Below are positions 5,503 through 24,088 of a DNA stretch of 34,256 bases, in pieces. Origin of the DNA: Deltaproteobacteria bacterium (GTDB taxonomy: Bacteria; Desulfobacterota; GWC2-55-46; UBA9637); the NCBI GenBank assembly GCA_030690165.1, contig JAUYHF010000014.1, positions 1-34,256 on the forward strand, in the 5' to 3' direction. The position numbers and the translations under genes are program-made. The stretch's first letter is position 1; each line of letters starts with the position of its first letter. The notes below the pieces were generated by a model. It was given only the letters and a program-made list of their open reading frames with translations, did no database searches and had not been told where the DNA came from.

Positions 5503-6732
5503 ATGCAAACCATGATAGATATTACGACACAACTTTCTATTATAAAAAGAGGGATTGTTGATCTTATATCAGAAGAAGAACTGAAAGAAAAATTGCAAAA
5601 TGCCGCAAAAGACGGCAAACCTCTCCGCATCAAGGCAGGCTTTGACCCTACAGCCCCTGACCTCCATCTTGGTCATACTGTTCTTATTCAAAAATTGAAA
5701 CAATTTCAAGAATTAGGACATCATGTGATATTCCTCATCGGCGATTTTACCGGCATGATTGGCGACCCAACAGGCAAGTCCGAGACCAGAAAACCCTTAA
5801 CAAAAGACGATGTGGCTAAAAACGCAGAGACATACAAGGCCCAGATATTTAAAATTCTGGATGAGGAAAAAACCGAAATAGCATTCAACAGCCGCTGGAT
5901 GAATAATCTCCCTGTAGCAGACTTTATACTCCTTGCCTCCAAACATACCGTTGCCAGAATGCTTGAACGTGATGACTTTAAAAAACGCTATACGGGCAAC
6001 AGGCCGATTGCAATCCATGAATTTTTGTATCCGCTCATTCAGGGTTATGACTCTGTAGTATTGAAGGCTGATGTGGAAATCGGCGGAACAGACCAGAAAT
6101 TCAATCTTTTGGTAGGCAGGGAACTCCAGAGAGAATTTGGCCAGACGCCTCAGGTTGTCATCACCATGCCGCTTCTCGAAGGGACTGACGGCGTGCAGAA
6201 GATGAGCAAATCCCTTGGGAATTATATAGGGATTACCGAACCTCCCGGAGAAATATTTGGAAAGATAATGTCTGTGTCAGACGAACTGATGCTAAGATAT
6301 TATGAACTTTTAAGCTCTCTCTCCAACACAGAACTTGAAGAATTAAAACAAGGTTTAAAAAATGGCGCGGTTCATCCAAAGGATGCCAAGGTCAGACTTG
6401 CAAAAGAGATGACAACAAGATTTTATGGAAGCGACTCTGCAATTAAGGCAGCCTCTGAATTTGATAAGGTATTCAAGGCCAAAGATATCCCGGAGGATAT
6501 AGAAGAAAAGGTTATTGCCATTCAGACCGACTATGCAGGGGTTGTTGATATTTTAAAAACAATTGGTTTGGTTCCTTCAAGCTCAGAGGCAAGAAGACTT
6601 ATCCAGCAGGGGGGAGTTAGTATTGACGGAATGAGAGTATCTGATATAAACTTAAGGCTGCCTGCCAATAAAAATTATTTGCTGCAGGTGGGTAAAAGAA
6701 GATTTGCAAGGGTCATCATCAAAAAGCAATAG
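5503..6732 (+). CDS. tyrS: Tyrosyl-tRNA synthetase
   Basis: A 409-aa class I synthetase that charges tRNA-Tyr. The Rossmann core shows the HIGH-type motif in '[20 protein letters not shown]', the tyrosine pocket segments '[20 protein letters not shown]' and '[20 protein letters not shown]', and the class signature '[10 protein letters not shown]'. A C-terminal S4 domain follows ([20 protein letters not shown]). It belongs to the shorter TyrRS group common in deep-branching bacteria. ATG 5503 has only a weak purine-rich site; ATG 5512 is an alternative. It lies 36 nt after ymdB and 36 nt before hemA, probably in one long transcript. Confidence 0.96.
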
Positions 6733-6768
6733 AAAATTCTTTGTCGGTGAGCTTTTCAGAGGTTTCAA

Positions 6769-8070
6769 ATGAATCTAATCGTAGTCGGTCTCAGTCATAA
6801 AACAGCGCCTGTTGAGATAAGGGAGAGGCTTTCATTTCCTGCCCAAACAATAGGCGAGCCGTTAAACAGGCTATGCACAGCCTATGAAATAAACGAAGGG
6901 GTTATTATATCCACATGCAACAGGGTTGAGGTATTTGCTGTTACGAGGGACATTGAAAAGGGGCTGTGGCAGGTAAAGAAGTTCTTATCAGAATATCACA
7001 ACATACCTCTGGAAGGATTAGATAAGCATCTTTATGCCTATACATCAGAAGATGCGGTAAGGCATATCTTCCGGGTTTCTTCAGGCATTGATTCAATGAT
7101 CATAGGAGAGCCGCAGATACTGGGTCAGGTAAAGGATGCCTATGGTTACGCCCTCCAGCACAAAACCGCCGGCGTTATAATGAATAAGCTTTTTCACAAG
7201 GCATTCTCGGTTGCAAAGAGGATCCGCACAGAGACAAAGATAGGCTCCAGCGCAGTCTCCGTAAGCTACGCAGCAGTGGAGCTGGCAAAAAAAATCTTTG
7301 GAACGCTTGAGGGCAAGATAGCTATGCTTATAGGCGCCGGAGAGATGGCTGAACTTGCAGCCAGGCATCTCCTTTCAAGCGGAGTGCAGGAGATAATCGT
7401 GGCAAACAGAACCTACGAAAAGGCTATAGAGATGGCCAAGGGCTTCAATGGCACGCCTATCATGTTCAGAGAGTTTACCCATTATCTTAAAAAGGTGGAT
7501 ATTGTCATTGCTTCAACTGCCGCGCCTAAATTCATAATACATCCTGAGCAGATAGAGGAGGTAATAAAGGAGCGAAAGAACCGGTCAATGTTTTTTATTG
7601 ACATCTCTGTTCCCCGGAATATAGACCCGCTTATAAACAATATAGATAACATCTACCTTTATAATGTTGACGACCTTCAGGGCGTTGTTGAGGCAAATTT
7701 AAAAGAAAGGGCAAAAGAGGCGAAAGAGGCTGAGGCAATTATCAATGAGGAATTGGGCAATTTCCATAGATGGGTCAAGTCCCTTGATGTGGTGCCGACC
7801 ATTGTGGCATTAAAGAAAAAATTTGAAGAGATAAGAAAGGGCGAGATGGAAAAGGCATTGTCAGGGATGAATAACCTGCAGGAAAAGGATAAAGAGACAA
7901 TAGACGCCATGACAAAGGCAATAATCAATAAGGTAGTTCACGACCCTGTAACCCATCTTAAAAAAGAGGCAAACAAGGTGGAGGGGGATTTTTATATAGA
8001 GGCGGCAAGAAAACTGTTTGATCTAGACGCAGAGGCAGATAAAGAGGCAAAAAAGGCTGAAGAAGGATAG
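6769..8070 (+). CDS. hemA: Glutamyl-tRNA reductase
   Basis: First committed enzyme of the C5 tetrapyrrole pathway: it reduces glutamyl-tRNA(Glu) to glutamate-1-semialdehyde using NADPH. The N-terminus GLSHKTAPVEIRERLSF is diagnostic, the catalytic cysteine is Cys50 in STCNRVEVFAV, the catalytic domain continues with 'SSGIDSMIIGEPQILGQVKD', the NADPH site is 'AMLIGAGEMAELAARHLL', and a helical dimerisation domain closes the 433-aa protein. ATG 6769 follows CAGAGG by about 8 nt. It starts the haem block, with hemC 21 nt downstream. The HemL aminomutase, needed next, is not in the window. Confidence 0.97.
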   Translation: MNLIVVGLSHKTAPVEIRERLSFPAQTIGEPLNRLCTAYEINEGVIISTCNRVEVFAVTRDIEKGLWQVKKFLSEYHNIPLEGLDKHLYAYTSEDAVRHIFRVSSGIDSMIIGEPQILGQVKDAYGYALQHKTAGVIMNKLFHKAFSVAKRIRTETKIGSSAVSVSYAAVELAKKIFGTLEGKIAMLIGAGEMAELAARHLLSSGVQEIIVANRTYEKAIEMAKGFNGTPIMFREFTHYLKKVDIVIASTAAPKFIIHPEQIEEVIKERKNRSMFFIDISVPRNIDPLINNIDNIYLYNVDDLQGVVEANLKERAKEAKEAEAIINEELGNFHRWVKSLDVVPTIVALKKKFEEIRKGEMEKALSGMNNLQEKDKETIDAMTKAIINKVVHDPVTHLKKEANKVEGDFYIEAARKLFDLDAEADKEAKKAEEG

Positions 8071-8091
8071 TTCCAAGAAGGAGAGTATAAA

Positions 8092-9060
8092 TTGAAAAGA
8101 AAGATTAAACTCGGCTCACGCGGTAGCCAGCTTGCATTGTGGCAGGCAAACTGGGTAAAGTCAGAGCTGGGAAAAAGATATAAGAACCTTGAAGTAGAGA
8201 TAATAAAGATCAAAACAACAGGAGATAAAATCCTTGATGTGCCTCTTGCAAAGGTCGGCGGCAAAGGGCTTTTTGTAAAAGAGATTGAAGAAGCTCTGCT
8301 GGGAAAAAGGATTGATCTGGCTGTGCATTCCATGAAGGATGTGCCGACTGATTTTCCCAACGGATTGCACCTTGCTGCAATTACAGAGAGGGAAGACCCA
8401 AGGGATGCGTTTATAATAAGTCAAAAGTTAAAAGTCAAAAGTCAAAAGTTTAAAGACCTGGCTTACGGCGCAAGTATCGGCACAAGCAGCCTTAGACGTT
8501 CATCTCAATTGCTTAATGTAAGACCTGATTTAAAGATTGAGCAGTTAAGAGGAAACCTTAACACACGTTTAAGAAAACTTAATGAAGGACACTTTGATGC
8601 AATCATCCTCGCAGCAGCGGGACTTAAAAGGCTCGGATGGTCTGAAAGGATTACCGAATACCTTTCACCCGAAATTAGCCTTCCTGCCATAGGTCAGGGC
8701 GCGCTTGGCATAGAGACAAGGATAGATGATAAAGAGATAAATGAACTGACGGCCTTTTTTGACCACCCGGCTACTTCTATTTCAGTAAGGGCAGAACGGG
8801 CGCTTTTAAAGAAACTCGAAGGCGGATGTCAGGTGCCAATCGCCGCATACGGAGAAGTTAAAAACAATCAGCTAAAACTCATTGGTCTGGTCGCGTCTAT
8901 AGATGGAAAAAGGATTATTAAAGATTCTATTACAGGCCAAATTGACAGGGCAGAGGCTATCGGCATAGAACTGGCGGAAAGACTTCTCAGTATGGGCGCA
9001 TGGGATATATTGAAAGAGGTTTATGAAACTGCGCCGCCCATGCAGGGCGGGGCGGGTTAA
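8092..9060 (+). CDS. hemC: Hydroxymethylbilane synthase (porphobilinogen deaminase)
   Basis: Polymerises four porphobilinogens into hydroxymethylbilane in the cytosol. Seen: GSRGSQLALWQANWVKSEL at the start, 'KGLFVKEIEEALL', 'DLAVHSMKDVPTDFPNGL', the arginine-rich substrate site 'GTSSLRRSSQLL' and 'QLRGNLNTRLRKL', and the dipyrromethane-cofactor cysteine Cys246 in GGCQVPIAAYG. The start is TTG 8092 with AAGAAGGAGAG upstream. Length is normal at 322 aa except for a lysine-rich insertion at residues 110-121, encoded by a heptanucleotide array (separate entry), between 'EDPRDAF' and the substrate loop. HemD is not next; the cellulose operon intervenes. Confidence 0.96.
   Translation: MKRKIKLGSRGSQLALWQANWVKSELGKRYKNLEVEIIKIKTTGDKILDVPLAKVGGKGLFVKEIEEALLGKRIDLAVHSMKDVPTDFPNGLHLAAITEREDPRDAFIISQKLKVKSQKFKDLAYGASIGTSSLRRSSQLLNVRPDLKIEQLRGNLNTRLRKLNEGHFDAIILAAAGLKRLGWSERITEYLSPEISLPAIGQGALGIETRIDDKEINELTAFFDHPATSISVRAERALLKKLEGGCQVPIAAYGEVKNNQLKLIGLVASIDGKRIIKDSITGQIDRAEAIGIELAERLLSMGAWDILKEVYETAPPMQGGAG
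8419..8453 (+). repeat. Heptanucleotide tandem array inside hemC
   Basis: Five consecutive 7-mers, AGTCAAA, AGTTAAA, AGTCAAA, AGTCAAA and AGTTTAA, fill 8419-8453 and encode SQKLKVKSQKFK within HemC. The unit is not a multiple of three, so gain or loss of one copy would shift the frame. The encoded segment falls in a surface loop by comparison with known HemC sequences (inference). Confidence 0.85.
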
Positions 9061-9099
9061 GATTTACAATTATATCTTAAAGGTGCGGGTTTACAAATA

Positions 9100-11397
9100 T
9101 TGCGAATCAAAAGAGATAAGTCAACCATCCCACAGGTGTTGCATTTGAACAAAGAAACCCTATTTCATATCGCGATATATCTCGCTGCATCCGCTTTAGT
9201 CTTTGCCATAATCTATTTTACGGATGCCTATCTGAATATTTCCCATGAGGCATCTATTAGTTGGGGGCTTCTGGCCATGGCCATCATTTTGAACAGGGTG
9301 GAGTCATTCAAGCATGTCCCCGGCAGGGTTATCTTCATATTTATAGCAGGGCTTATTACCTTAAGATATTTTATATGGAGGACATTTGATACCTTGATAT
9401 ATGTAGGTCCTCTGGATATGGTCGGCATGGCGCTTATCTATGCGGCTGAAGTGTATGCTGTAGCCATCCATTTTCTCGGCATGTTTGTCAGTCTATGGCC
9501 TCTGGAGCGGAGTCCCATGCCGCTTCCTGATGATCCATCTATACTTCCCACAGTTGACATCCTTATACCTACTTACAATGAATCTGAAGAGATTGTAAAA
9601 CTCACTGCAGTGGCTGCCACACAGATAGATTATCCCAAAGAAAAGCTGAATATATACATACTGGATGACGGCGCCACAACTGCCAGAAGAAATAATAAAG
9701 AGACATCTCAATCTGCATGGGAGAGATATCATCGCTTCAGCGGTATGGCGCAGGATTTAGACGTCCACTATATTGCAAGAGAAGAGAACATTCACGCCAA
9801 GGCAGGCAACTTAAATCATGCGCTGAAAAAGACCGGCGGAGACCTTGTCCTTATCCTTGACTGCGACCATGTCCCGACAAGGGATATTCTCAAGAATACG
9901 GTGGGCTATTTTTTAAAAGATAAGAAGCTCTTCCTCGCTCAGACACCACATTTCTTTATAAATCCGACAACCGTTGAGAAGAATATCGGTTCATTCTCAA
10001 ACGCCCCAGGTGAAAATGATATGTTCTATCACAGCGTGCATCTCGGCCTGGATTTCTGGAACGCCAGTTATTTCTGCGGCTCTGCAGCCCTTTTAAGAAG
10101 GAAATATTTAATGGAGATTGGAGGTATATCTGGACATACTATTACAGAAGATGCCGAGACATCACTGCATCTGCACAATAGAGGATATAATAGTGTGTTT
10201 ATCAAAAGGCCGATGATATGCGGCCTCTCTCCTGAGACATTTGACGATTATATCCAGCAGAGAAGCCGTTGGGCCCAGGGTATGACGCAGATATTAATCT
10301 TGGCAAATCCATTGCTGGCAAATAACCTTACAATACCACAAAAGCTCTGTTATTTTAATAGCAGCTTTTTCTGGCTTTTTAGCATCGCAAGGCTCATATT
10401 TTATTTAGGTCCTGCCCTATTTCTTATACTTGGGCTCAAGGTCTATCACGCATCTGTTGGTCAGATGCTTATCTATGCCCTCCCACATGTCATAAGCACC
10501 TTTGTGGTAATGGGCTTTTTCTACGGCAAGGTAAGGAGGCCATTCTTTTCAGAAATTTATGAGAGTGTGCAGTCAATATATCTCCTGCCTGCTGTTTTAT
10601 CTGTGATATTAAATCCGAGAAGGCCGACATTCAAGATTACGCCAAAGGGTAAAACGATAGAAAGCGAATTTACAAATCCAATGGCATCCGCCTTTTTGTT
10701 GGTTAGCCTAATAAATATTGTCGCTATTTTTTGGGCTGTATCTAAATGGGTAAATTATCCAATATACAGGGATGTTATATTTGTCACATTCTCCTGGTGT
10801 GTTTATAATACGTTACTGTCTCTGGCTACACTTGGCGCATTTCTTGAAAGAAGGCAGATGCGCAGCAATCATAGGGCAAAGGCTGCAGGAGAGGTAAGCA
10901 TATTGGAGCCAGACTCAAGAAAGTATATCAATGGACAGATCAGAGACCTTTCTATGACAGGCATTGGAATTGAGGTGAATGTACCGTTTTCTAATCCAGA
11001 GCCAGATAGGGATATTATGATAGCAGGGCATGATAGTTACGGCGAGAGGTATGAGTTTAAGGCAAAGGTCAGGGCAAATATAAAAAGGGGCAATAAGACT
11101 ATCTTGGGGCTTGAATTTATCGCTGACGATAAGGATACATTCGCAAAGGTAGTGAGATTTGTTTACGGCGACAGTCAAAGGTGGGTGGATATATTGGATT
11201 CCAGAACAGTATCCGCAAGTTCAACTGGCGACATGTATTATTTTGCCCAGAGAGGCGTTAAGGGGGCTGCAGCAAGTTTTATTTATCTCAATAATATGAT
11301 ATATGTTTTGCTGAAAAGATATTTGCAATCCCTGCGGATATGGATTAGATCATCCCATCCATGGATTAAGAAGGAGACAATTTATGAAGGTGAATAA
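9100..11397 (+). CDS. bcsA: Cellulose synthase catalytic subunit BcsA (GT2 + PilZ)
   Basis: Inner-membrane processive glycosyltransferase that polymerises UDP-glucose into beta-1,4-glucan and threads it through its own channel. Seen in order: N-terminal membrane helices; GT2 domain with ILIPTYNESEEI, ILDDGA (189-190), DCD at 254-256, TED at 349-351 and the Q(Q/R)xRW motif QQRSRW at 386-391; further helices; the gating-loop motif FKITPKGK (511-518); and a C-terminal PilZ domain with RSNHR (588-592) and DLSMTG (616-621), the c-di-GMP-binding RxxxR and DxSxxG pair. It should therefore be activated by c-di-GMP. The start is uncertain: TTG 9100 lacks a good ribosome site and downstream GTG/TTG codons exist. 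It overlaps bcsB by 14 nt. Confidence 0.95.
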   Translation: MRIKRDKSTIPQVLHLNKETLFHIAIYLAASALVFAIIYFTDAYLNISHEASISWGLLAMAIILNRVESFKHVPGRVIFIFIAGLITLRYFIWRTFDTLIYVGPLDMVGMALIYAAEVYAVAIHFLGMFVSLWPLERSPMPLPDDPSILPTVDILIPTYNESEEIVKLTAVAATQIDYPKEKLNIYILDDGATTARRNNKETSQSAWERYHRFSGMAQDLDVHYIAREENIHAKAGNLNHALKKTGGDLVLILDCDHVPTRDILKNTVGYFLKDKKLFLAQTPHFFINPTTVEKNIGSFSNAPGENDMFYHSVHLGLDFWNASYFCGSAALLRRKYLMEIGGISGHTITEDAETSLHLHNRGYNSVFIKRPMICGLSPETFDDYIQQRSRWAQGMTQILILANPLLANNLTIPQKLCYFNSSFFWLFSIARLIFYLGPALFLILGLKVYHASVGQMLIYALPHVISTFVVMGFFYGKVRRPFFSEIYESVQSIYLLPAVLSVILNPRRPTFKITPKGKTIESEFTNPMASAFLLVSLINIVAIFWAVSKWVNYPIYRDVIFVTFSWCVYNTLLSLATLGAFLERRQMRSNHRAKAAGEVSILEPDSRKYINGQIRDLSMTGIGIEVNVPFSNPEPDRDIMIAGHDSYGERYEFKAKVRANIKRGNKTILGLEFIADDKDTFAKVVRFVYGDSQRWVDILDSRTVSASSTGDMYYFAQRGVKGAAASFIYLNNMIYVLLKRYLQSLRIWIRSSHPWIKKETIYEGE

Positions 11398-13852
11398 GGT
11401 ATTTTTTTTCGTAAGTCTATTTTGCATGGCCGCTCCTGTTTTTGCCGCCGAAGAGGCCGCAGCCCCAGTTTCAGGCGCAGTTGCCGCCGTGGTAAAGACA
11501 GGCTCGCTGAGTGTCCGTGATAATCCTTCCTTAGACGGACATATCATCGGAAAGTTAAAAAATGGCGATATTGTTCAGGTCGTTGCGCACACGGCAGACA
11601 GGCAGTGGTATAAAATCATCTTCAAGGCCGCGGCAGGCGCATGGGTGTCAGCGAGGTTTGCGGCGCTGTCAGGCTCCGTTGATGCCCTGCCTGTTGCAGG
11701 GGGATCGGTGTCTGTCCCTGCCTCATTGTCCGGCGCCGGTGGAAAAACAGAAACCATGAAGATTTCCCTTGATAAACTTGCGCCATTCAAATCTGTGGAT
11801 CTAAGGTGCATAAATGGGGGATACACTGTATCGGTTCCAGTTCCGGAGAGATGGAAGGTTAAAAGAGTTGTTTTAAATATATCCTATGTAAACTCCTCAA
11901 ACCTTATAGCTGACAACTCACAGTTGATTGTCAGGTTTGATAATTCCATCCTCGGTCAGACTAAACTCTTTCCCCTTGCCCCTGAGGGAAAGATGAATCT
12001 GTCCATACCGGCCTCGCTTATGGACGCAGGCTACCATGACTTGGGCCTTCAGGCTGTTCAGCATTATACGCATAACTGCGAGCAGTTCTGCGCCCCTGAT
12101 TTGTGGACAACCGTCAATCTTGAAAAATCATTTCTGGAGATTGAATATATTCTTAAACCCATCCCATTAAAGTTATCCGAAATATCTAATTTTTTGTTTG
12201 ACCATAAGATACTTCCCGCCGGCAATGTAAACATAGTAATAGAAAATCTCTCATCGGAGAAGGCCACTCTGGCAGGCATTGCCGCATCAGGGATTGCCAG
12301 AAGATTTGATTACAGAAAGGTGTATTTTAATATATCAACGGATATCAAGGCAGGTTATGACAATGTAATTGTAGGGGATAAAAAATTTGTTCAAGCCCTT
12401 TTAAAAAAGAATAGTATAGGGCCTCTCATGATAGAAGGTCCGTTTTTAAAGATAATGCCTCTGCCTGCAGCAAACAGCCAGACTGGAACAGTTCAGATAG
12501 ACCCATTGCACGGCCTGCTCGTTGTTTCAGGAAGCAATGTAGAGGAGATAAAGGTTGCAGCGGCAACCTTTGCCAATATCACTATCCCATATCCTGGCAC
12601 AGACGAGATGACAGCGAAACAGTTCAATATGCCTGATATATCCCTTTACAGCGGCAAAAGGGTTTTGAGCTCTGATAAAACATATACCTTTAAAAAATTA
12701 GACTTCACCACCCATACATTTGAGGGCTTCAGCCCCGCGCCAATGGATATAAGATTCCGCCTCCCTGCTGACTTTCTCATAAAGCCGAATCAATATGCAA
12801 AGATAGTCCTTAACTTTACCTACGGCGCCGGGATGCGAAGCGATTCTGTTTTGAATATTATGCTTAATGGTAATATCATAAGGGTTATCCCTTTAAATAA
12901 TCCCGCCGGGGATTACATAGAGGGATACAGGGTGGAGCTCCCCACCTATCTGTTTAAGACAGGCTCAAATACTATAAAATTTATACCTATCTTGAACCCT
13001 GTGGCTAAAGAGTGCGACATTATCAGGGATGAGGGTTTTTTCCTGACAATCTTTGATAATTCCACCCTCCATTTTCCATCCATGCCGCATCTTATTGAGA
13101 TGCCGAAGATAGAGCTGTTCATGCTGGACGGCTTTCCCTTTACCCGCTGGCCTGACGGCCTTGAGTCAATAATCTATATAACCTCTAAAGACCTCTTTAT
13201 AGCGGAGGCCGCGCTGAATATTATCGGCATTATCACCCAGAAAAGCGGCTTTCCTTTATCCGGGCTCAAGGTCAGTTTTGAAAGGCCTAACTGGGATGGA
13301 GAGATTATCGTCATAGGCGATAGCGGGACCATCCCGGAAGACTTTTTAAAAGGGGCGCCGTTAAGGCTTGCAAAGGAGTCCACCGTTCCATATCCTGTGG
13401 CAAGGGGGTGGAAGGCTGAATCATCCCTTGCATCCAGCAGACAGATAAGCGGTCTCGGGCCAAATACCGGCGCTGTTATGGAATTTCAATCGCCATATAA
13501 AAAAGGGCGCACTGCGCTTTTATTTACAGGCGCATCTAAAAAGGAATTATTGTCATTAAGCCATGCCCTGATGGAGCCTGGCGTGGGGTCGCAGATGAAA
13601 GGGGACCTCAATCTCATTGACCTTAATGACCCGCCAAATTATAAAGTGAATGCAATAAGCGCAGGGGAAAGATATTTTACAGGCAAGGCAGGCAGGATTT
13701 CTAAAATAGACTACTACCTTTACACATACCCTTATCTCGCCTATCTCGCCGTGGCTCTCTTAGTCCTGATTTTGAGCCTGGCATTGTTTTTAATCTTGAA
13801 AAGATACAGGGCAAAGAGGATATTCAATGAAGATGCGGATAAAACTGATTAG
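11384..13852 (+). CDS. bcsB: Cellulose synthase subunit BcsB with an N-terminal SH3-like domain
   Basis: An 822-aa periplasmic subunit anchored by one C-terminal helix (about 785-805, YLAVALLVLILSLALFLILK) that partners BcsA and guides the glucan. It starts with a signal peptide (VFFFVSLFCMAAPVFA). Residues about 33-95 form a bacterial SH3-type domain (GSLSVRDNPSLDGHIIGKLK, then 'GDIVQVV', 'QWYKIIF', 'GAWVSARF'), which ordinary BcsB proteins lack. The BcsB body follows, with carbohydrate-binding-like jelly rolls and linkers: 'VNISYVNSSNL'-type strands, 'LDFTTHTFEGFSPAPMDIRF', 'LNFTYGAGMRSDSVLNIMLN' and 'NTIKFIPILNPVAKECD'. ATG 11384 has AAGGAGAC 7 nt upstream. It overlaps bcsA by 14 nt and bcsZ by 26 nt, so translation is coupled. 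Confidence 0.93.
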   Translation: MKVNKVFFFVSLFCMAAPVFAAEEAAAPVSGAVAAVVKTGSLSVRDNPSLDGHIIGKLKNGDIVQVVAHTADRQWYKIIFKAAAGAWVSARFAALSGSVDALPVAGGSVSVPASLSGAGGKTETMKISLDKLAPFKSVDLRCINGGYTVSVPVPERWKVKRVVLNISYVNSSNLIADNSQLIVRFDNSILGQTKLFPLAPEGKMNLSIPASLMDAGYHDLGLQAVQHYTHNCEQFCAPDLWTTVNLEKSFLEIEYILKPIPLKLSEISNFLFDHKILPAGNVNIVIENLSSEKATLAGIAASGIARRFDYRKVYFNISTDIKAGYDNVIVGDKKFVQALLKKNSIGPLMIEGPFLKIMPLPAANSQTGTVQIDPLHGLLVVSGSNVEEIKVAAATFANITIPYPGTDEMTAKQFNMPDISLYSGKRVLSSDKTYTFKKLDFTTHTFEGFSPAPMDIRFRLPADFLIKPNQYAKIVLNFTYGAGMRSDSVLNIMLNGNIIRVIPLNNPAGDYIEGYRVELPTYLFKTGSNTIKFIPILNPVAKECDIIRDEGFFLTIFDNSTLHFPSMPHLIEMPKIELFMLDGFPFTRWPDGLESIIYITSKDLFIAEAALNIIGIITQKSGFPLSGLKVSFERPNWDGEIIVIGDSGTIPEDFLKGAPLRLAKESTVPYPVARGWKAESSLASSRQISGLGPNTGAVMEFQSPYKKGRTALLFTGASKKELLSLSHALMEPGVGSQMKGDLNLIDLNDPPNYKVNAISAGERYFTGKAGRISKIDYYLYTYPYLAYLAVALLVLILSLALFLILKRYRAKRIFNEDADKTD

Positions 13853-14867
13853 CCTTGTTATAGCGCTGTCTGTCTGCAATACTGCTTATGGAGGAGAGGA
13901 TGCGGCGTTATGGGAGCGGTATAAGACAGATTTTATAAGCGAGGACGGAAGGGTGATAGATTATCATCAAAATCAGATAAGTCATTCCGAGGGGCAGGGT
14001 TATGGCATGATGCTGGCTGTTATTCATAATGACAGGGCTGTATTTGACAGCCTCTGGCTGTGGACAAAAAATAATATCAAGGTAAGGACAGATAATCTCT
14101 TTACCTGGAGTTGGGGCAAGAGATATGACGGACAATGGAGTGTAATTGATTACAATAATGCAACAGACGGCGATATCCTGATAGCCTACTCGCTTCTAAA
14201 GGCTTATGAAAAATGGAATGACAAAGGTTATAAAAACGAGACAGTAAAGATAATAGAAGATATAAGGAAAAAACTTGCCATAACATGGCAGGGGCATACA
14301 TTTTTACTGCCCAGCTATTATGGCTTTGTTAAGGAGAATGGTTTTGTATTAAATCCCTCTTATTTTATCTTTCCCGCCTTCCGCTACTTTGCTGAGGTAG
14401 ATGACAGGCTTTTCTGGGAAAAGGTTTATAAAGATAGTTTGTTCCTTATTACCCAATCCTGTTTTGGCAAACTGTGCCTTCCAGCGGACTGGGTAATCTT
14501 AAAAGATGAAAAGGTTTCAGTATATGAAAATAGTTCCTCTTACTTTGGCGCTGAGGCTATAAGGGTTTTGCTTTATATGTCATCGGAAAAGAAAGCGCAA
14601 TTTCCAAAAGGCGTTGATAAGATATTAGAGATGTATAAACAGATAGGCTACCTTCCATCACGGATAGATCTGGAAAAAGACAGCTTTTCATTAAAACCTG
14701 CCCCGGCAGGTTATTATGCCGTATATGCCCTGGCGGCAAAAAACATGGGCGATGATGTCTTAAGCAAAAGGCTCTTCAAAGAGGCAAGGGAGAGGTTAGA
14801 CGCTGAAGAAAAGAGCTATTATTCATTTAACCTGTATCTATTGGCAGTCAACGGATATCTGTTTTAG
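13827..14867 (+). CDS. bcsZ: Endo-beta-1,4-glucanase BcsZ (GH8)
   Basis: A 346-aa secreted glycoside hydrolase family 8 enzyme that cuts cellulose chains in the periplasm during export. A signal peptide (IKLISLVIALSVCNTAYG) precedes the mature start 'GEDAALWERYKTDFISEDGR'. The catalytic acid is Glu55 in ISHSEGQGYGMMLA, the family's strongest motif; 'FTWSWGKRYDGQWSVIDYNN' and 'ATDGDILIAYSLLKAYEKW' form the substrate cleft and contain the other conserved acidic residues. The C-terminus 'LKPAPAGYYAVYALAAKNMG' completes the alpha/alpha barrel. It begins inside the end of bcsB (26-nt overlap) and is followed 14 nt later by bcsG. Confidence 0.93.
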   Translation: MKMRIKLISLVIALSVCNTAYGGEDAALWERYKTDFISEDGRVIDYHQNQISHSEGQGYGMMLAVIHNDRAVFDSLWLWTKNNIKVRTDNLFTWSWGKRYDGQWSVIDYNNATDGDILIAYSLLKAYEKWNDKGYKNETVKIIEDIRKKLAITWQGHTFLLPSYYGFVKENGFVLNPSYFIFPAFRYFAEVDDRLFWEKVYKDSLFLITQSCFGKLCLPADWVILKDEKVSVYENSSSYFGAEAIRVLLYMSSEKKAQFPKGVDKILEMYKQIGYLPSRIDLEKDSFSLKPAPAGYYAVYALAAKNMGDDVLSKRLFKEARERLDAEEKSYYSFNLYLLAVNGYLF

Positions 14868-14881
14868 AGGCGACTTTCCAT

Positions 14882-16417
14882 ATGGGCGTGTGGATATTTT
14901 ATTTTTTAGCAAAGACCTATCTGTTTTATAAGGGATATATCCGATTGGATGTCCTCTGGAATCTCATCTTTATGGGGTTGCTTATCATCCCTCTCCCTAA
15001 AGGATTAAAGCCGTCAAGATTGGCTGCGGCTGCCAAGGCTATAGTGGCCGTGATATTAGGCTCACTTCTCCTCTGGCATGATTCGTGGCTTCCGTCTCCT
15101 CTGGAGTCAGCGAATCTCCTTCAGCAACAGGGAATACCGACCAAAGAATATATATTCAATTTCCTTTTAAGATATTACAACCCCGTAGAGATGGCTATCC
15201 TCTCTGCAATCCTCGCATTCTGCATAATAATTAGAAATTACAGAAGACTTAATCTGACTGGGACTGTGATTTTAATTGTTGCTGCGCCATTTCTTATCTC
15301 TTCAGACTGGCATGGAAACACAAGCAAGGAATTGGACAAATTTTTAGAGGCCTTTTATGAACACGAATCATCCAAGTTTATCTATTTAAAGAAACCAAAG
15401 ACAGCGAGGCCTGATTTTGATATTGTGATACTTAATATCTGCTCCCTTGCATGGGATGACCTGGAGGCATTAAATCTTAAAGGGCATCCCTTGTTTAAAG
15501 AGTTTGATTACCTGTTTACAAATTTCAATTCAGTGTCGGCATACAGCAATCCGTCCGCGATAAGGCTTTTGAGGTCAAACTGCGGACAGACAAGGCACGG
15601 AGACCTATATAATAACGTCCCGGCAAACTGCTCTATTATGGAAAGTCTCCGCGTCATGGGTTATGAAACATATTTCTTATTAAATCATAACGGCCAATAC
15701 GGCAATTTTACAGAAGAGGTTAAAAGGCTGGGCAATCTCAATAATGTAAAGGAGGCGGATATTCCCAACCTTCCTACCCAGTTGAGCATGTTTGATGATT
15801 CCCCTGTTTATAACGACTATTCGGCGCTTGAGAGATGGTGGTCTGTAAGAGAGAAGTCAAAGTCAGACACAGCAGCGCTCTATTATAACAGTGTAACCTT
15901 GCACGACGGTGTGCACAATGCAGGAGAAAAAGACTGGTGGAAAATGGACCAGGAAGAGCAGTATAAAAAACTCCTTCCTGTTCTTCTGGATGATATGGCA
16001 AGATTTTTGAATCTCCTTGAATCTTCCGGAAGGAATATTGTGGTTATATTCATCCCTGAGCACGGGAGGGCGGTGCATGGCAGCGCGATGCAAAAACCTG
16101 GGTTTCGGGATATACCGCTCCCTGATATAACAAATATACCTGTGGGGGTCAAGCTTATTGGAAAATTCCAATATGACAGGAAAAAGAGGCAGCAGGTCAT
16201 CATCCATGAGTCCGCAAGCTATTTTGCCGCCGCATACATGCTGGCATCCTTTATTGAAAAAAACCCTTTTAAATATGAGGGATTCTTTTCCAGAAGGTTT
16301 ATAAATGCCATACCGCGGACAGATTTTGTGGCGGAAAATGAGGTCAATATAGTAATCAGGAGAGAGAAAAACTACTTTTTATACGGAAAGGATAAAAAGT
16401 GGCTGCCCCTTCACTGA
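14882..16417 (+). CDS. bcsG: BcsG-like cellulose phosphoethanolamine transferase
   Basis: A 511-aa inner-membrane protein. About four to five N-terminal membrane helices (residues 1-140, including 'LLIIPLPKGLKPSR' and 'LLLWHDSWLPSP') are followed by a periplasmic alkaline-phosphatase-like domain. The E. coli BcsG zinc/catalytic set is conserved: Cys187 in LNICSLAWDD, Ser222 in SAYSNPSAIRLLRSNCGQ (the nucleophile that carries phosphoethanolamine) and Glu393-His394 in IPEHGRA. 'LLNHNGQYGNF', 'DDSPVYNDYSALERW' and 'IPVGVKLIGK' also match closely. It should transfer phosphoethanolamine from phosphatidylethanolamine to glucose units of cellulose. The small partner BcsF and the BcsE regulator are not present here. 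It fits the operon position after bcsZ. Confidence 0.92.
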   Translation: MGVWIFYFLAKTYLFYKGYIRLDVLWNLIFMGLLIIPLPKGLKPSRLAAAAKAIVAVILGSLLLWHDSWLPSPLESANLLQQQGIPTKEYIFNFLLRYYNPVEMAILSAILAFCIIIRNYRRLNLTGTVILIVAAPFLISSDWHGNTSKELDKFLEAFYEHESSKFIYLKKPKTARPDFDIVILNICSLAWDDLEALNLKGHPLFKEFDYLFTNFNSVSAYSNPSAIRLLRSNCGQTRHGDLYNNVPANCSIMESLRVMGYETYFLLNHNGQYGNFTEEVKRLGNLNNVKEADIPNLPTQLSMFDDSPVYNDYSALERWWSVREKSKSDTAALYYNSVTLHDGVHNAGEKDWWKMDQEEQYKKLLPVLLDDMARFLNLLESSGRNIVVIFIPEHGRAVHGSAMQKPGFRDIPLPDITNIPVGVKLIGKFQYDRKKRQQVIIHESASYFAAAYMLASFIEKNPFKYEGFFSRRFINAIPRTDFVAENEVNIVIRREKNYFLYGKDKKWLPLH

Positions 16418-16443
16418 GGCCATTGCCAAATTTGGGATTTTAT

Positions 16444-17226
16444 ATGCCTGTGCGCAAAATCGCATATCTCTGTGGGATATTATTCTGTGTTTTTATATTC
16501 ATGCCTTCATCTCAGGCAATGGGGATTGAGGGTTTTCCAGGCTCCACATGGGGGATACTGACTCATGATACCGGGGGTCTGACAGGCTCAGGCGCCATGG
16601 GCTGGGTCAGGCAGGGGATTGACTGGGCTGTCCTGCCGGGAGACATAACCGTAGATACCTATGTCGAGTACCGCTACAGGTCCAGGACAAAACAGAATGA
16701 ATTTTATGACGCAGAAGGGCCAGCGATGGGCATTGAGCTCAAAAAATCCATATTTGCATTAGGCGCGGATTATTACTGGGAGAGGTTTCCAAAGATAGAT
16801 AAAAGCTCGGAGAACCGCGAATTATATCTGACCTATTATTATGGATGGGATTTAAAAAAATTGACAGGGGCAGATCTGCCTGTGATTGAAGGGCTTTCAG
16901 GCTCAATATGGGGAAGACTGAATTACGATGCCGCCGGGCTCACAGGCTCAGGCACCATGGGCTGGATCAATCAGGGGATTGACTGGGTTACGTTCCCCGG
17001 AAGTATAACACTTAATACCTACGCAGAGTACCGCTATAGACTCAGGACGAAGGAAAAAAACTATTACAATGCAGAAGGGCCTGCATTGGGTATTGAATTT
17101 AGAAAATCGGTCTTCAGATTAGGCATGGATTATTACTGGCAGAGATTCCCCGAGATAAAAAATGAATCAAAAAGTCTTGAGATATATCTGTCATGGTATT
17201 ATTCATGGGACCTGAAAGGGAAATAG
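16444..17226 (+). CDS. Secreted protein of two beta-rich repeats, unknown function
   Basis: I do not recognise this family. From ATG 16444 it is 260 aa with a signal peptide (IAYLCGILFCVFIFMPSSQA, cleavage after SQA). A GTG at 16399 with GGAAAGGA upstream, overlapping bcsG, would add 15 residues. The mature part is two copies of a roughly 110-residue unit, each starting 'EGxxGSxWGxL' and ending 'SWDLK' or 'GWDLK', with alternating aromatic strands such as 'DTYVEYRYRSRT' and 'GADYYWERFP'. No helices or enzyme motifs are visible. Short amphipathic, Tyr/Trp-rich strands suggest a beta-barrel or beta-sandwich at the outer membrane or in the periplasm (inference). It is the last gene of the bcs operon, and no bcsC is present, so a role in glucan export or surface attachment is possible. 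Confidence 0.85.
   Translation: MPVRKIAYLCGILFCVFIFMPSSQAMGIEGFPGSTWGILTHDTGGLTGSGAMGWVRQGIDWAVLPGDITVDTYVEYRYRSRTKQNEFYDAEGPAMGIELKKSIFALGADYYWERFPKIDKSSENRELYLTYYYGWDLKKLTGADLPVIEGLSGSIWGRLNYDAAGLTGSGTMGWINQGIDWVTFPGSITLNTYAEYRYRLRTKEKNYYNAEGPALGIEFRKSVFRLGMDYYWQRFPEIKNESKSLEIYLSWYYSWDLKGK
16528..17226 (+). repeat. Internal gene duplication: two ~110-codon units
   Basis: Unit 1 spans about 16528-16860 and unit 2 about 16888-17226, joined by a short linker encoding LTGADLPVI. At DNA level they still share blocks such as the GGGCTGG/GGGATTGACTGGG stretches near 16600 and 16960. At protein level about half the residues are identical, including GLTGSG-MGW--QGIDW and Y-AEGPA-GIE--KS. The duplication is therefore fairly recent or strongly constrained. 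Confidence 0.9.
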
Positions 17227-17368
17227 AATGCAGATACCTATGGATAATACTATCCATCTATGTTAAAAAAATAGCTTAAAGAATGGGTTGTAAATCAAGG
17301 TGGAAGTTTAAAAACATTTAACATCATATCAACAATATTTTAATCCTTGAGGAGATATAATAATTTAT

Positions 17369-18946
17369 ATGAGTAGAGGCAAGGTCTATCTAATCGGCGC
17401 AGGCCCTGGGGACCCAGGGCTTATCACGGTTAAGGCCGTAGAGTGTATTAAAGAGGCAGACGTTGTTGTCTATGACTATCTGGCAAATAAGAAGTTTCTG
17501 GAGTATGCCGGAAAGGGCGCAGAGATTATCTATGTCGGCAAGATAGGCGGCGCGCATACATTGCCGCAGGAAGATATAAATAAACTCATTATTGAAAAAG
17601 CAAAAAAGGGAAAGGTTATTGCAAGGCTTAAGGGCGGCGACCCTTTTATCTTTGGAAGGGGCGGCGAAGAGGCTGAGGAGCTTGTAGGGGCAGGTATTGC
17701 TTATGAAGTTGTGCCTGGTGTTACAGCAGGGGTAGCTGCTGCTGCGTATGCAGGCATACCTCTGACGCACAGGGATTTCACAACAACTGTGGCATTTATT
17801 ACAGGCCATGAAGACCCGACAAAGGATGAATCAAATATATACTGGGACAAGATTTCAACAGGTATCGGCACACTGGTTTTTTATATGGGCATTGGAAACC
17901 TTGGGCCGAATATGAAGAAACTTATTGAAAATGGGAGAAGCCCAGATACCCCTGCTGCTTTAATACGTTGGGGGACAACACCGGATCAGGAGACGCTTGT
18001 TGGAACCATCGGCGATATTGCAGAAAAGGCAAAGGCAATAAATTTCAAGGCGCCTGCAATAACTGTTGTGGGCGGGGTCGTTTCGTTAAGGGATAAATTA
18101 AGGTGGTTTGATAAAAGGCCGCTTTTTGGCAAGAGGGTTGTTATTACAAGGGCAAGGGAGCAGGCTTCTGATTTTGCAGATTTGTTAAAAGAGAATGGCG
18201 CTGATGTAATTGAGTTCCCAACAATAGAGATAGTCCCTCCTAAAAAATGGGATGATGTTGATAAGGCAATTAAAAGGCTTTCATCCCCTCACCCTACCCT
18301 CTCCCGCAAGGGGAGAGGGAATTATTATGATTGGGCTATCTTTACCAGCGTAAATGGTGTAAAATATTTTGTAGAACGACTGAAAAAACAGGGTAAGGAT
18401 ATAAGGGAGCTAAAGGGCATTAAGATATGCGCCATCGGCCCTGCAACAGCCAAAGCAATAGAGGATTTAGGCATAAAGGTTGACTTTCTGCCAAAAGAAT
18501 ATCGCGCAGAGGCGATAATAGAAGGTCTTGGTAAAAACAGGATAAAAGGCAGGAGATTTTTACTCCCCAGGGCATTAAAGGCAAGAGAGATACTCCCTGA
18601 GGAGATAAAGAGGCTCGGCGGCAAAGTTGATGTTGTGCCTACCTACAGGACAATAAAGCCAAAGGAAAAGACTGATGAAATTAGAAAAATGTTTGAGGAA
18701 AAAAAGATTGACGTAGTAACATTCACATCTTCTTCAACAGTGGAGAATTTTGTGGGTATGTTTAAAAAGGGAGAGGCGCCGGGTCTTTTAAACGGCGCAG
18801 TAGTCGCCTCCATAGGGCCGATAACAAAGGATACGGCAACCAAATTGGGCATAAAGACAGATATAATGCCTGAAAAATACACAATACCGGCATTGACAGA
18901 GGAGATAGTAGAGTATTTTAAGAAACAGGAGGGGAAATCATTATGA
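17369..18946 (+). CDS. Fused uroporphyrinogen-III C-methyltransferase / uroporphyrinogen-III synthase (CobA-HemD)
   Basis: A 525-aa two-domain enzyme. Residues about 1-240 are the SAM-dependent methyltransferase (start VYLIGAGPGDPGLITVKAVE, 'RLKGGDPFIFGRGGEEAEEL', 'YEVVPGVTAGVAAAAYAGIP', 'LVFYMGIGNL') making precorrin-2 from uroporphyrinogen III. The remainder is HemD (KRVVITRAREQASDFADLL, 'GADVIEFPTIEIVPP', 'DWAIFTSVNGVKYFVERL', 'IGPATAKAIEDLGIKVDFLP'), which cyclises hydroxymethylbilane. The HemD domain carries an in-frame palindromic repeat (18285-18321). The 142-nt gap upstream holds a small ATGGATA/TATCCAT hairpin (17240-17257) and a GAGGAGAT site 12 nt before ATG 17369, a long spacing. 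The stop overlaps ahbC (ATGA). Such fusions are common in anaerobes using siroheme-dependent haem synthesis. Confidence 0.94.
   Translation: MSRGKVYLIGAGPGDPGLITVKAVECIKEADVVVYDYLANKKFLEYAGKGAEIIYVGKIGGAHTLPQEDINKLIIEKAKKGKVIARLKGGDPFIFGRGGEEAEELVGAGIAYEVVPGVTAGVAAAAYAGIPLTHRDFTTTVAFITGHEDPTKDESNIYWDKISTGIGTLVFYMGIGNLGPNMKKLIENGRSPDTPAALIRWGTTPDQETLVGTIGDIAEKAKAINFKAPAITVVGGVVSLRDKLRWFDKRPLFGKRVVITRAREQASDFADLLKENGADVIEFPTIEIVPPKKWDDVDKAIKRLSSPHPTLSRKGRGNYYDWAIFTSVNGVKYFVERLKKQGKDIRELKGIKICAIGPATAKAIEDLGIKVDFLPKEYRAEAIIEGLGKNRIKGRRFLLPRALKAREILPEEIKRLGGKVDVVPTYRTIKPKEKTDEIRKMFEEKKIDVVTFTSSSTVENFVGMFKKGEAPGLLNGAVVASIGPITKDTATKLGIKTDIMPEKYTIPALTEEIVEYFKKQEGKSL
18285..18321. repeat. Palindromic repeat inserted in the hemD domain
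   Basis: CCCTCTCCC (18297-18305) and GGGAGAGGG (18311-18319) form a perfect 9-bp stem with a 5-nt loop, preceded by CCCCTCACCCTA. This composition is typical of dispersed intergenic palindromes, but here it is read in frame as SPHPTLSRKGRGN, about residues 306-318 of CobA-HemD, between the 'KAIKRL' helix and 'YDWAIFTS'. Confidence 0.8.
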
Positions 18947-20196
18947 TAGACATAACAAAACTTTTTTGCGGAGCTGATACAACAGGAGACCCGTTAAGAT
19001 ACGGACATAAAACAGGACATGGACACGGCACACCTCATGCAACAGAAAAACTGGAGCATGAGGTTCCAAAATCTGCCAGTGAAAGAAGGCCGGTTGTGGT
19101 ATGGAGCGTGTCAAGGAGATGCAATTTAAACTGTGTACACTGTTATACGGATTCTCACAATGAGGACTATCCAGGCGAGTTGACTCACGGTGAAGCAAAG
19201 ACTATGATTAAAGATCTGGCGGATTTTAAGATACCGGCGCTCCTTTTATCCGGCGGCGAGCCGCTCATGAGAAAGGATTTATTTGAGCTTGCGGATTATG
19301 CCAGAGGTCTGAATATGCGGCTTACGCTTTCAACCAACGGTACCTTGATAGACCAGAAGATGGCAAAGAGGATAAAGGAAACAGGTTTTAGTTATGTGGG
19401 TATATCCTTTGATGGCATCGGCGAGGTAAATGATAAATTCAGAGGTATGGAAGGGGCATTTGACCTTGCGTTGCGCGGTGTCAGAAACTGTATGGAGGTT
19501 GAACAGAAGGTTGGGTTGCGGCTTACGCTTACCAAAAGAAACTACGAAGACCTGAACAATATCTTTGACTTTGTTGAAAAAGAAGGCATCCAGAGGGTCT
19601 GCTTCTATCACCTTGTTTACGCAGGGCGAGGCAGTGAAATCATGAAAGATGACCTCTCCCACGAAGAGAGCAGACGCGCATTGGATATAATCCTTGAAAG
19701 GACAATGGACTTTTATAAAAGAGGTCTGAAGAAAGACATTCTTACTGTTGATAATCATGTTGACGGGCCTTATCTTTATATGAAGCTGAAAGAGACTGAT
19801 CCTAAAAGGGCGGAAGAGATTTATAAGCTTATGGAGTGGAACGGCGGCGGCGCGAATTCCTCTGGCGTGGGCATCGGCAATATTGATTTTTTCGGCAATG
19901 TCCATGCAGACCAGTTTTGGCAGGACTATTCATTTGGCAATGTAAAGAAGAGGCCATTCAGCGAAATCTGGATGGATACAAAAGACCCGATTATGAAGGG
20001 GCTTAAAAACAGGCTGCCGCTTTTGAAGGGGCGATGCAACCAGCATGTATGTAAGTGGGTAAAACTCTGCGGCGGAAGTTTCAGGGTCAGGGCATTAAGG
20101 GTTTACAATGACCCATGGATGGAGGATCCTGCATGTTATCTGACAGATGAGGAGATTGGGATTGTTAGTAAAAAAATAGCAGTGGGAGAAAGGTAA
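18943..20196 (+). CDS. ahbC: AhbC-type radical SAM protein (12,18-didecarboxysiroheme deacetylase)
   Basis: A 417-aa radical SAM enzyme of the AhbC/NirJ1 group, which removes two acetate side chains from didecarboxysiroheme to give Fe-coproporphyrin III. It begins '[20 protein letters not shown]', the family start, then has a His/Gly-rich patch ([12 protein letters not shown]). The [4Fe-4S]-SAM motif is Cys60-x3-Cys64-x2-Cys67 in [14 protein letters not shown]; '[20 protein letters not shown]' is the SAM-binding GGEP region. A C-terminal cysteine cluster ([18 protein letters not shown], then DPACYL) should hold an auxiliary Fe-S cluster. Its ATG overlaps the cobA-hemD stop (ATGA), and hemB begins 4 nt after its end. 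NirJ of haem d1 synthesis is the alternative, but no other nir genes are present. Confidence 0.88.
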
Positions 20197-20200
20197 GTTT

Positions 20201-21175
20201 ATGTCCTTCCCCAAATATCGTCCAAGACGATTAAGAAAAAACGAAATGATCAGAAGAATGGTCAGGGAGACAACCCTCTCAATAGACGATCTGATATTGC
20301 CGCTCTTTGTAACATTCGGCAGGAATGTAAAAAAGCCGATAAGCTCTATGCCCGGCCATTATCAGATGTCGGTGGACAACCTCGCAAAAGAGGCGAAAGA
20401 GATAAAAAGCCTCGGCATTCCTGCCGTGATTCTGTTCGGCATCCCTGAGCATAAAGACGAGATTGGCAGCGAGGCATATAACCCAAAAGGTATAATTCAG
20501 CAGGCTATAAAAACGATTAAGAATAAGTCGCCTGAACTGGTTGTCATCACAGATGTATGTATGTGCGAATATACATCACACGGGCACTGCGGGATAATAA
20601 AGAATAACGATGTGGATAACGATGCAACGCTTGAACTTCTCGCAAAGGAGGCGCTGTCTCACGCAAAGGCAGGCGCTGATATGGTGGCGCCGTCAGATAT
20701 GATGGACGGAAGGGTGGGAGCTATCAGAAAGGCTTTAGATGAAAACGGTTTCCAAAATATGCCGATTATGAGCTATGCCGTAAAATACGCCAGCGCATTT
20801 TACGGGCCGTTCAGAGAGGCAGCGGAATCAACACCTGAATTCGGAGACAGACGAAGTTATCAGATGGATCCGGCAAACAGCGATGAGGCGATAAGAGAGG
20901 TGAGGCTTGATATTGAAGAGGGCGCGGATATTATGATGGTCAAGCCTGCGCTGCCATATCTTGACATAATCAGGAGGATACGGGAAGAATTTGACTATCC
21001 TGTTGCCGCATATAATGTAAGCGGCGAATTTGCAATGATAAAGGCAGCGGCAGAGCTCGGATGGATGGATGCCGAAAAGGCAATGATGGAAAGCCTTATT
21101 TCTATAAAGAGGGCAGGCGCTGATTTAATACTCACATATTTTGCGAAAGAAGCGGCAAAGATATTAGGAAGGTAG
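20201..21175 (+). CDS. hemB: Delta-aminolevulinic acid dehydratase (porphobilinogen synthase)
   Basis: A 324-aa cytosolic enzyme joining two 5-aminolevulinates into porphobilinogen. It shows '[20 protein letters not shown]' at the N-terminus, the zinc-site cysteines in [14 protein letters not shown], and the two Schiff-base lysines in '[17 protein letters not shown]' and '[16 protein letters not shown]'. The active-site lid '[19 protein letters not shown]' is intact. The C-x-C-x7-C arrangement marks the zinc-dependent type rather than the magnesium type. ATG 20201 follows an AGGTAAG site. It sits between the two radical SAM haem genes, so the block is clearly one pathway operon. Confidence 0.97.
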
Positions 21176-21181
21176 ATAGTT

Positions 21182-22342
21182 ATGAACACAATGCTAAAAG
21201 GTCATCCCCACGAAGTTGCTGGGATGGAAACAAAACATGGAGCAGAAAAAAAGTGGCTTCCCAAACTGATTGCGTGGGAGGTAACGAGGTCATGCAATCT
21301 GAACTGCATACACTGCAGGGCAGCGGCAAGGTTTGGCCCATATCCCAATGAACTCAAAACAGAAGAGTGTCTTGCGTTCCTTGATGATGTGGCAAAGGCA
21401 TTTCCTTCGTGTATCATCATCCTTACAGGCGGCGAGCCAATGTTGAGGGAAGATATATGGGAGATTGCGGCGCACGGCCACAAGCTTGGCCTGCGGATGG
21501 TTATGGCCCCATGCGGCGTTCTTGTTACAGAGGAGACAGCCAAAAAGATGATAGAGTCCGGCATACAGAGGGTCAGCTTTTCCATAGACGGCGCAACTGC
21601 TGAAAGCCATGATAATTTCAGGAGGGTAAAGGGCGCATTTGACAGTGTAATGAAGGCAATTGAAAATGTAAAAAAGGTTGGTCTTGAGTTTCAGGTAAAT
21701 ACAACAATTACAAAACACAATCTCAAGGAACTGCCGCTTATTCTGGATTTGGTTATTAAACTCGGCGCCAAGGCTCACCATCCGTTTTTGCTGGTTCCCA
21801 CAGGAAGGGGCGCTGAATTAAAGCACATGGAGATAGCTCCTGAGGACTATGAAAAAACCCTAACCTGGTTTTATAACATGAGGGACAAGGTGCCGATCCA
21901 GTTCAAGCCTACATGCGCGCCGCATTATTACAGGATATTCAGGCAGCATGAAAAAGAAAAGGGAATAACCGTAAAGCCGGAAACCCACGGCCTTGACGCC
22001 ATGACCAAGGGGTGCATGGGGGGCCAGTCATTCGCATTTGTGTCTCATACCGGAAAGGTGCAGATATGCGGTTTCCTGGATGTTGAATGCGGGGATATAA
22101 GAAAAGAGCCGTTCAGCAAAATCTGGGAGACATCAAAGGTCTTCAAAGAGATGCGGGCGTGGGATGATTATCTCGGAAAATGCGGATACTGTGAATTCAG
22201 AAAGGTATGCGGCGGCTGCAGGGCAAGGGCTCATGCCTTTACCGGAAACTATATGGAAGAAGAGCCGTTTTGCACATACGAACCCAGTGAAGAGGCGAAA
22301 ATTGCGCATGTTAGACGAAAGGAGGCAGTAGGCGAAAAGTAA
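21182..22342 (+). CDS. ahbD: AhbD-type radical SAM haem synthase (Fe-coproporphyrin III decarboxylase)
   Basis: A 386-aa radical SAM enzyme that oxidatively decarboxylates two propionates of Fe-coproporphyrin III to the vinyl groups of haem b without oxygen. Family features are 'LPKLIAWEVTRSCNLNCIHC' with the SAM cluster Cys38-x3-Cys42-x2-Cys45, 'IIILTGGEPMLREDIWEIA', 'RVSFSIDGATAESHDNFRRV', and a C-terminal SPASM-like cluster (CGYCEFRKVCGGCRARAHAF, then PFCTYEP) for auxiliary Fe-S binding. The stop TAA shares its last base with the ATG of the next gene. Related peptide-modifying radical SAM proteins look similar, but the haem-gene context makes AhbD the best call. Confidence 0.9.
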   Translation: MNTMLKGHPHEVAGMETKHGAEKKWLPKLIAWEVTRSCNLNCIHCRAAARFGPYPNELKTEECLAFLDDVAKAFPSCIIILTGGEPMLREDIWEIAAHGHKLGLRMVMAPCGVLVTEETAKKMIESGIQRVSFSIDGATAESHDNFRRVKGAFDSVMKAIENVKKVGLEFQVNTTITKHNLKELPLILDLVIKLGAKAHHPFLLVPTGRGAELKHMEIAPEDYEKTLTWFYNMRDKVPIQFKPTCAPHYYRIFRQHEKEKGITVKPETHGLDAMTKGCMGGQSFAFVSHTGKVQICGFLDVECGDIRKEPFSKIWETSKVFKEMRAWDDYLGKCGYCEFRKVCGGCRARAHAFTGNYMEEEPFCTYEPSEEAKIAHVRRKEAVGEK

Positions 22343-23167: not shown

Positions 23168-24088
23168 ATGGCAAACTGGAAAGACGTATTAGAGCAAATC
23201 CAAACCCTCAAGGCTAAACACACCAGCCTTGCCCAGCAATCTGTTGATTTGGTCCGCAGAGATTATTTGAAAAAACTAGCCGACCATACAAGCCGCAATG
23301 TTATTGCCTATTATTCCGGTTTCCTTTCTAAGCCAGAGATTCCTTCAGATATAATAGATGAAGATAAAAATGGTTTTCTGATGGCTGTGCATCGACTGGA
23401 TAGAAAAAAAGGCCTTGACCTTATATTACATACTCCAGGTGGCAGTATTTCTACAACACAATCTATTGTCAATTATCTTCACAAAATGTTTGGTTCCGAC
23501 ATTAGGGCTATTGTTCCTCAAATTGCTATGTCTGCTGGAACAATGATAGCTTGTTCTTGTAAAAGTATTTTAATGACAAGTCATTCAAACCTAGGGCCAA
23601 TTGATCCCCATTTAAGAGGAATTCCCGCCTATGGTGTAATTCAAGAATTTTAGAGAGCTTGTAAAGAAATTAAAAAGGATCCATTTAAAACCCCGGTGTG
23701 GACGACAATAATTGGACAGTATAGACCGACTTTCTTAAGTCAATGTGAAAATGCAATAAAAAGATCAAATAGTTTTGTCGAAGAACAGTTAAAACAAATT
23801 ATGTTTGCTAACGATCCAAAAGCTAAAGAAAAAGCTAAAAAGGTTGTAAAGCGATTAGCAGATTATAAAGGCAATAAAGGCCATGATAGGCATATACATG
23901 CTGAAGAATGTAAGTCTATAGGTTTGAATATTGAAATGGTAGAAAATGATCAAAAATTGCAGGATTTATTATTGCCAGTTCATCACTGTTATATGCACAG
24001 TCTAATGAATACCCTTTCATATAAAATAATTGAAAATCATCTTGGAGCTGCTTTTGTAAAACAACAGGCTATTATTATGAATCAATAA
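23168..24088 (+). pseudogene. SDH_sah-family (ClpP-fold) serine protease gene with an in-frame amber codon
   Basis: A single reading frame encodes about 306 aa but is cut by TAG at 23651-23653 (codon 162). The first part shows the crotonase/ClpP-like core: 'LDLILHTPGGSISTTQSIVN', 'IRAIVPQIAMSAGTMIACSC' with putative nucleophile Ser122, and 'SHSNLGPIDPHLRGIPAYGV'. After the stop the same frame continues at once with 'RACKEIKKDPFKTPVW' and the helical C-terminal half, so only one substitution separates it from an intact gene. This matches serine dehydrogenase proteinase (SDH_sah) proteins, thought to be membrane-associated or defence-associated proteases. There is no strong ribosome site at ATG 23168. 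Base composition is more AT-rich than the haem genes, suggesting acquisition. Confidence 0.75.

Follow-up and report, generated by a model that had tools for sequence, protein, structure and literature searches.

A duplicated beta-rich secreted protein as putative outer-membrane component of a phosphoethanolamine cellulose operon without BcsC

How does phosphoethanolamine (pEtN) cellulose leave a cell whose cellulose operon encodes no BcsC? The question is raised by a 34,256-nucleotide stretch of a contig of a Deltaproteobacteria bacterium (the window, by which we mean the whole stretch of DNA analysed), where a bcsA-bcsB-bcsZ-bcsG operon ends in a gene for a secreted protein, here called X (Table 1). 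Operons for cellulose that lack BcsC have precedents, and in α-proteobacteria they have been interpreted as pointing to a novel mechanism of export (PMC7112194). A preliminary description of the window, made from its letters alone, read the operon as one for the synthesis, hydrolysis and pEtN modification of cellulose with its exporter absent, and both parts of this reading stand. Pfam and NCBIfam confirm bcsA, bcsB, bcsZ and bcsG; bcsC was not found within the window, and the profile of the BcsC barrel (PF05420, BCSC_C) has no match in the window's genome (G000; 2.2 Mb in 70 contigs, estimated to be 100% complete) at E-values up to 10, in a search for which E. coli served as the positive control and matched. 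X thus lies in a bcs operon without another BcsC. Nor did the analysis turn up the combination that the preliminary description had named as speaking against its proposal, a soluble non-barrel fold together with a bcsC gene elsewhere; the genome search for bcsC was empty.

Table 1. The cellulose operon of the window and the parts of X
Feature	Position	Strand	Evidence or remarks
bcsA, cellulose synthase with PilZ domain	9100..11397	+	TIGR03030, 813.9 bits (cut-off 699.1); PilZ
bcsB with additional N-terminal SH3_3 domain	11384..13852	+	PF03170, E 8.6e-100; PF08239, E 6e-9
bcsZ, family 8 endoglucanase	13827..14867	+	PF01270, E 1.5e-62
bcsG, phosphoethanolamine transferase, always adjacent to X	14882..16417	+	PF11658, E 3.5e-132; TIGR03368
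X, putative outer-membrane exit barrel; secreted beta protein of two units	16444..17226	+	260 aa; no Pfam, NCBIfam or PDB relative
X signal peptide (MPVRKIAYLCGILFCVFIFMPSSQA)	16444..16518	+	Read by eye; similar leaders in relatives P0002, P0003 and P0008
X unit 1, about six strands	16525..16860	+	Internal repeat alignment and AlphaFold model
X unit 2, about six strands	16885..17217	+	Internal repeat alignment and AlphaFold model

X starts 26 bases after the end of bcsG and is the last gene of the operon; its reading frame is open upstream to a GTG at 16399, overlapping the end of bcsG. A Sec signal peptide, read by eye in X and its relatives and in X most likely cleaved after SSQA (residue 25), precedes two units of ~112 amino acids that are 62% identical to each other. 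Local alignment of one half with the other scores 419, whereas 200 shuffles reach at most 57; chance does not account for the repeat. The signal peptide and the two units of ~110 residues noticed beforehand are real features of the 260-residue product, and the protein is as unrecognised as had been supposed: profile searches gave no family match in Pfam or NCBIfam, one-unit and two-unit profiles had no credible match among PDB sequences, and no relatives were found in the plasmids and viral contigs searched. A tree of the units was mostly without resolution, and is compatible with one ancient duplication as well as with repeated or concerted duplication.

The surroundings of X have features of their own. 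The bcs cassette (9100-17226) sits within a heme operon (6769-22342, assigned from sequence), between hemA and hemC on one side and the cobA/hemD gene, a radical SAM gene, hemB and a second radical SAM gene on the other. AT skew is near 0 within the cassette and mostly +0.1 to +0.2 outside it, as if the cassette had been inserted. Farther along, two adjoining ORFs (23168-23653 and 23696-24088) presumably represent one broken Clp/SppA-like (SDH_sah type) protease gene. The SH3_3 domain of the window's BcsB occupies residues 41-92 and might contact peptidoglycan; the BcsB of L002, a relative's locus, reads as having no N-terminal extension, so the feature is not general, and Pfam finds no SH3_3 domain in the BcsB of genome G098 either. 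E. coli BcsA has N- and C-terminal domains through which it recruits BcsG (PMC11379886). The alignment of the window's BcsA to the family core begins at residue 22, and it therefore has no extension as long as that of E. coli.

Relatives of X come in three arrangements. Stand-alone pairs of units are encoded in the window, in L002 (behind bcsA-B-Z-G) and in G588, where bcsG and X lie on the opposite strand to bcsABZ. In G588 two overlapping ORFs (L023, 4468-5412 and 5409-6722) make up bcsB, which a frameshift or an assembly error has divided. A single unit of 146 amino acids with its own leader and stop follows bcsA-bcsG in L003 (whole operon 5771-10396); the bcsA there has two PilZ domains, and bcsB and bcsZ do not adjoin. 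In the third arrangement the X pair forms the C-terminal part of a longer protein with tetratricopeptide repeats (TPR-X-X), of 952 amino acids in G098, 833 in G559 and at least 450 in G555, where it lies near a contig end. The gene for this protein directly precedes bcsG in all three, and in G098 and G559 it stands between bcsZ and bcsG, the slot of BcsC. Ahead of the G098 bcs operon lies a gene for a large repeat-rich surface protein with DUF5649, Glug, MBG and YDG domains (L008, 141-3404). Finally, G516 carries a distant single unit (L020, 6103-6549) beside a GH18-polysaccharide deacetylase-GT2 fusion (6565-9897). Its locus resembles the pga-like operons with glycosyltransferase fusions that have been reported to have no detectable pgaA pore (PMC7112194), and suggests that the X module also serves another synthase-dependent polysaccharide. 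Of the single-unit homologues, that of L003 neighbours bcs genes; the unit of G516 accompanies a different synthase.

The TPR-X-X proteins provide the strongest evidence that X replaces the BcsC barrel. The alignment of X with the C-terminal 234 amino acids of TPR-X-X runs from end to end (41% identity, E 1e-57). The remaining TPR half matches the TPR halves of five BcsC proteins of the same phylum at E-values of 6e-13 to 2e-42: those of L050 (2e-39 and 2e-42), L053 (4e-35 and 6e-30), and L046, L048 and L049 (6e-13 to 2e-20), where L049 is taken as PF05420-bearing by its likeness to L048 and was not itself run through Pfam. Alignments are also obtained with a 152-residue stretch that has little TPR character (E 2e-15 for L050, 3e-14 for L053). 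Neither NfrA nor E. coli BcsC matches, and nor does an unrelated TPR protein from the G559 locus; the likeness is thus not generic TPR similarity, and it follows from this homology that TPR-X-X is a BcsC with its PF05420 barrel swapped for an X pair, unless the swap went the opposite way. The chain has no space for a second barrel, as the TPRs of the G559 protein extend to about residue 577 and X begins at 597; the PF05420 profile has no match in X itself or in the TPR-X-X proteins. Since the same domain in relatives occupies the place of the known pore on the BcsC scaffold, X is probably the replacement pore. In L048 a small TPR protein (9161-9805) that is similar to the beginning of the TPR-X-X scaffold, and perhaps a split-off piece of it, stands ahead of the PF05420-type BcsC.

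The distribution of X follows that of bcsG, in counts taken over related genomes that do not represent independent events. Of 63 genomes in the window's class, two (G000 and G588) have X, and the same two have bcsG. In the class of G098, bcsG is present in 3/195 genomes (G098, G555 and G559), which are also the three with strong matches to X, the distant unit of G516 coming in addition; a draw of 395 genomes from the phylum has X and bcsG each in the same two, and bcsB in twelve. PF05420 is absent from all six of the tested genomes that carry bcsG and X, namely G000, G098 (a single contig), G555, G559 and those of L002 and L003, and from all 195 genomes of the G098 class at E-values up to 1e-5. 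Bcs operons of the phylum without bcsG are the reverse: eight such loci were fetched, and each of the six tested for PF05420 encodes a TPR protein with this barrel in the operon. X operons and PF05420 operons are mutually exclusive in this sample, and the two operon types therefore would use different barrels. The linkage to bcsG could mean that the role of X is specific to pEtN cellulose, and not to export in general.

What fold X adopts is suggested by pattern and context, as confidence in the AlphaFold models is low, only three loci being usable. The two-unit model (pLDDT 43, pTM 0.34) has 11 strands in regular hairpins and the single-unit model (pLDDT 50) has six, so that the six strands per unit of the preliminary description reappear, at low confidence, in the single unit. 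Over 13 units, aromatic and aliphatic residues gather on one face of the predicted strands and charged residues on the other (8% charged on one face, 33% on the other), and the hydrophobic contrast of the strands was matched in 27 of 5,000 column shuffles. Foldseek searches with the low-confidence two-unit model returned almost only outer-membrane barrels, with no E-value below 0.006; the best were the beta-domains of invasin and intimin (probabilities 0.99 and 0.98, E 0.006-0.008), which we take to be 12-stranded, and Wzi was among the top matches. This favours an outer-membrane barrel without establishing it. The same search with the one-unit model returned nothing meaningful. Profiles of the E. 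coli NfrA and BcsC barrels, built from single-sequence templates, found nothing in X (hhalign probability under 1% for NfrA). The length of X allows no more than about 12 strands (11 in the low-confidence model) against the 16 of the BcsC barrel; an outer-membrane barrel of 12 strands would agree with the predicted number of strands and with the polarity of their faces.

Taken together, the genome comparisons make it probable that X is a stand-alone outer-membrane exit pore for pEtN cellulose that replaces the BcsC barrel. BcsA would polymerise the glucan and BcsB would take up the chain in the periplasm, BcsG would add phosphoethanolamine and BcsZ would trim; the chain would then exit via a pore of two six-strand X units, about 12 strands in all, with polar and charged residues facing inward. 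In some relatives the X pair is fused behind a BcsC TPR scaffold, and here and in L002 and G588 it stands alone. A single six-strand unit such as that of L003 cannot close a barrel by itself, which counts against this reading, and such a unit would have to assemble with other copies. Another point against it is that the stand-alone X is without a TPR scaffold partner: X carries no BcsC-type TPR scaffold on its own chain, as its G098 and G559 relatives do, and searches for relatives of the BcsC TPRs in the genomes of G000, G588, L002 and L003 were negative at E-values up to 0.001.

Three other readings have to be weighed. The preliminary description had offered two candidates for the place of BcsC, a barrel of 12 strands and a glucan-binding module at the surface; the comparative evidence favours the barrel, and surface binding survives as a rival, in which X would be a Wzi-like outer-membrane barrel that binds and anchors pEtN cellulose at the surface and the chain would exit by another pore. 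The appearance of Wzi among the top matches of a weak model speaks for it, as does the position of X, which follows bcsG and not the synthase alone and is confined in the phylum to bcsG-bearing operons. However, TPR-X-X leaves no other barrel on the BcsC scaffold, so that the X pair sits where the pore belongs, and PF05420 is absent from the TPR-X-X genomes; we consider anchoring unlikely. Quite unlikely, in our view, is a soluble, non-membrane periplasmic beta protein that aids BcsG or guides the modified cellulose. X does always adjoin bcsG, even with bcsABZ in the opposite orientation (G588) or without bcsB and bcsZ alongside (L003), and no barrel model is confident; but a soluble helper would not be expected to take the place of the BcsC barrel domain, nor to separate charged residues from aromatic and aliphatic ones on opposite strand faces. 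E. coli, which has a PF05420-type BcsC, offers a further argument against it, as its BcsG is not known to need an X-like partner. That X is an accessory secreted protein of no export role, placed in the operon incidentally, has nothing in its favour beyond the lack of a recognised family and is made very improbable by the exact co-occurrence with bcsG across two classes and by the fusion to the BcsC scaffold.

If X is an exit pore, its history might be broader than that of the bcs operons. We tentatively propose, as a possible but rather doubtful extension, that X represents a kind of polysaccharide export pore built from six-strand units and working without a TPR scaffold, in which single units oligomerise and the two-unit X is a fused form. 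Its entry into Bcs systems, through replacement of the BcsC barrel, would have coincided with the pEtN modification of the polymer, with the distant relative in L020 serving a PNAG-like synthase without PgaA. The data support describing the window's Bcs export system as one with a hitherto unrecognised component of the outer membrane that does not belong to PF05420 and whose fold and export function are putative. X is thus a concrete candidate exporter for a BcsC-less operon in another lineage than the α-proteobacteria, found via replacement on the BcsC scaffold. Should it prove to be the pore, the exit pore of cellulose systems would be an exchangeable module, a pore of ~12 strands could pass pEtN cellulose, the TPR scaffold would be dispensable, and an orphan family that accompanies bcsG throughout the two classes searched would gain a name.

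Known systems offer several parallels. In alginate export the scaffold AlgK and the barrel AlgE are separate proteins, a division that the window's X may share; AlgE is larger, an 18-strand barrel, and no scaffold partner for X was found. Trimeric and monomeric autotransporters build a 12-strand barrel from several short chains or from one, an analogy in chain number for the single-unit and two-unit forms of X, although function and sequence are unrelated. Wzi would share with X the barrel class and the sugar context and appears in the weak fold search, but it is much longer (441 amino acids), attaches capsule and has no sequence relation to X that we could find. NfrA, of the NfrBA exopolysaccharide system, combines a signal peptide, TPRs and a C-terminal pore region in one protein (PMC8669469), a layout like that of TPR-X-X, but without profile-level similarity to X. 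BcsC itself differs from X in its barrel, which spans 336 positions and 16 strands (PMC11379886) against two six-strand repeats in about 235 amino acids and has no detectable similarity to them, and the window's X is without the TPR domain. Yet BcsC proteins of the same phylum have a TPR half homologous to that of TPR-X-X, and BcsC holds the same operon slot as the TPR-fused relatives of X, where the expected job is that of the cellulose exit pore.
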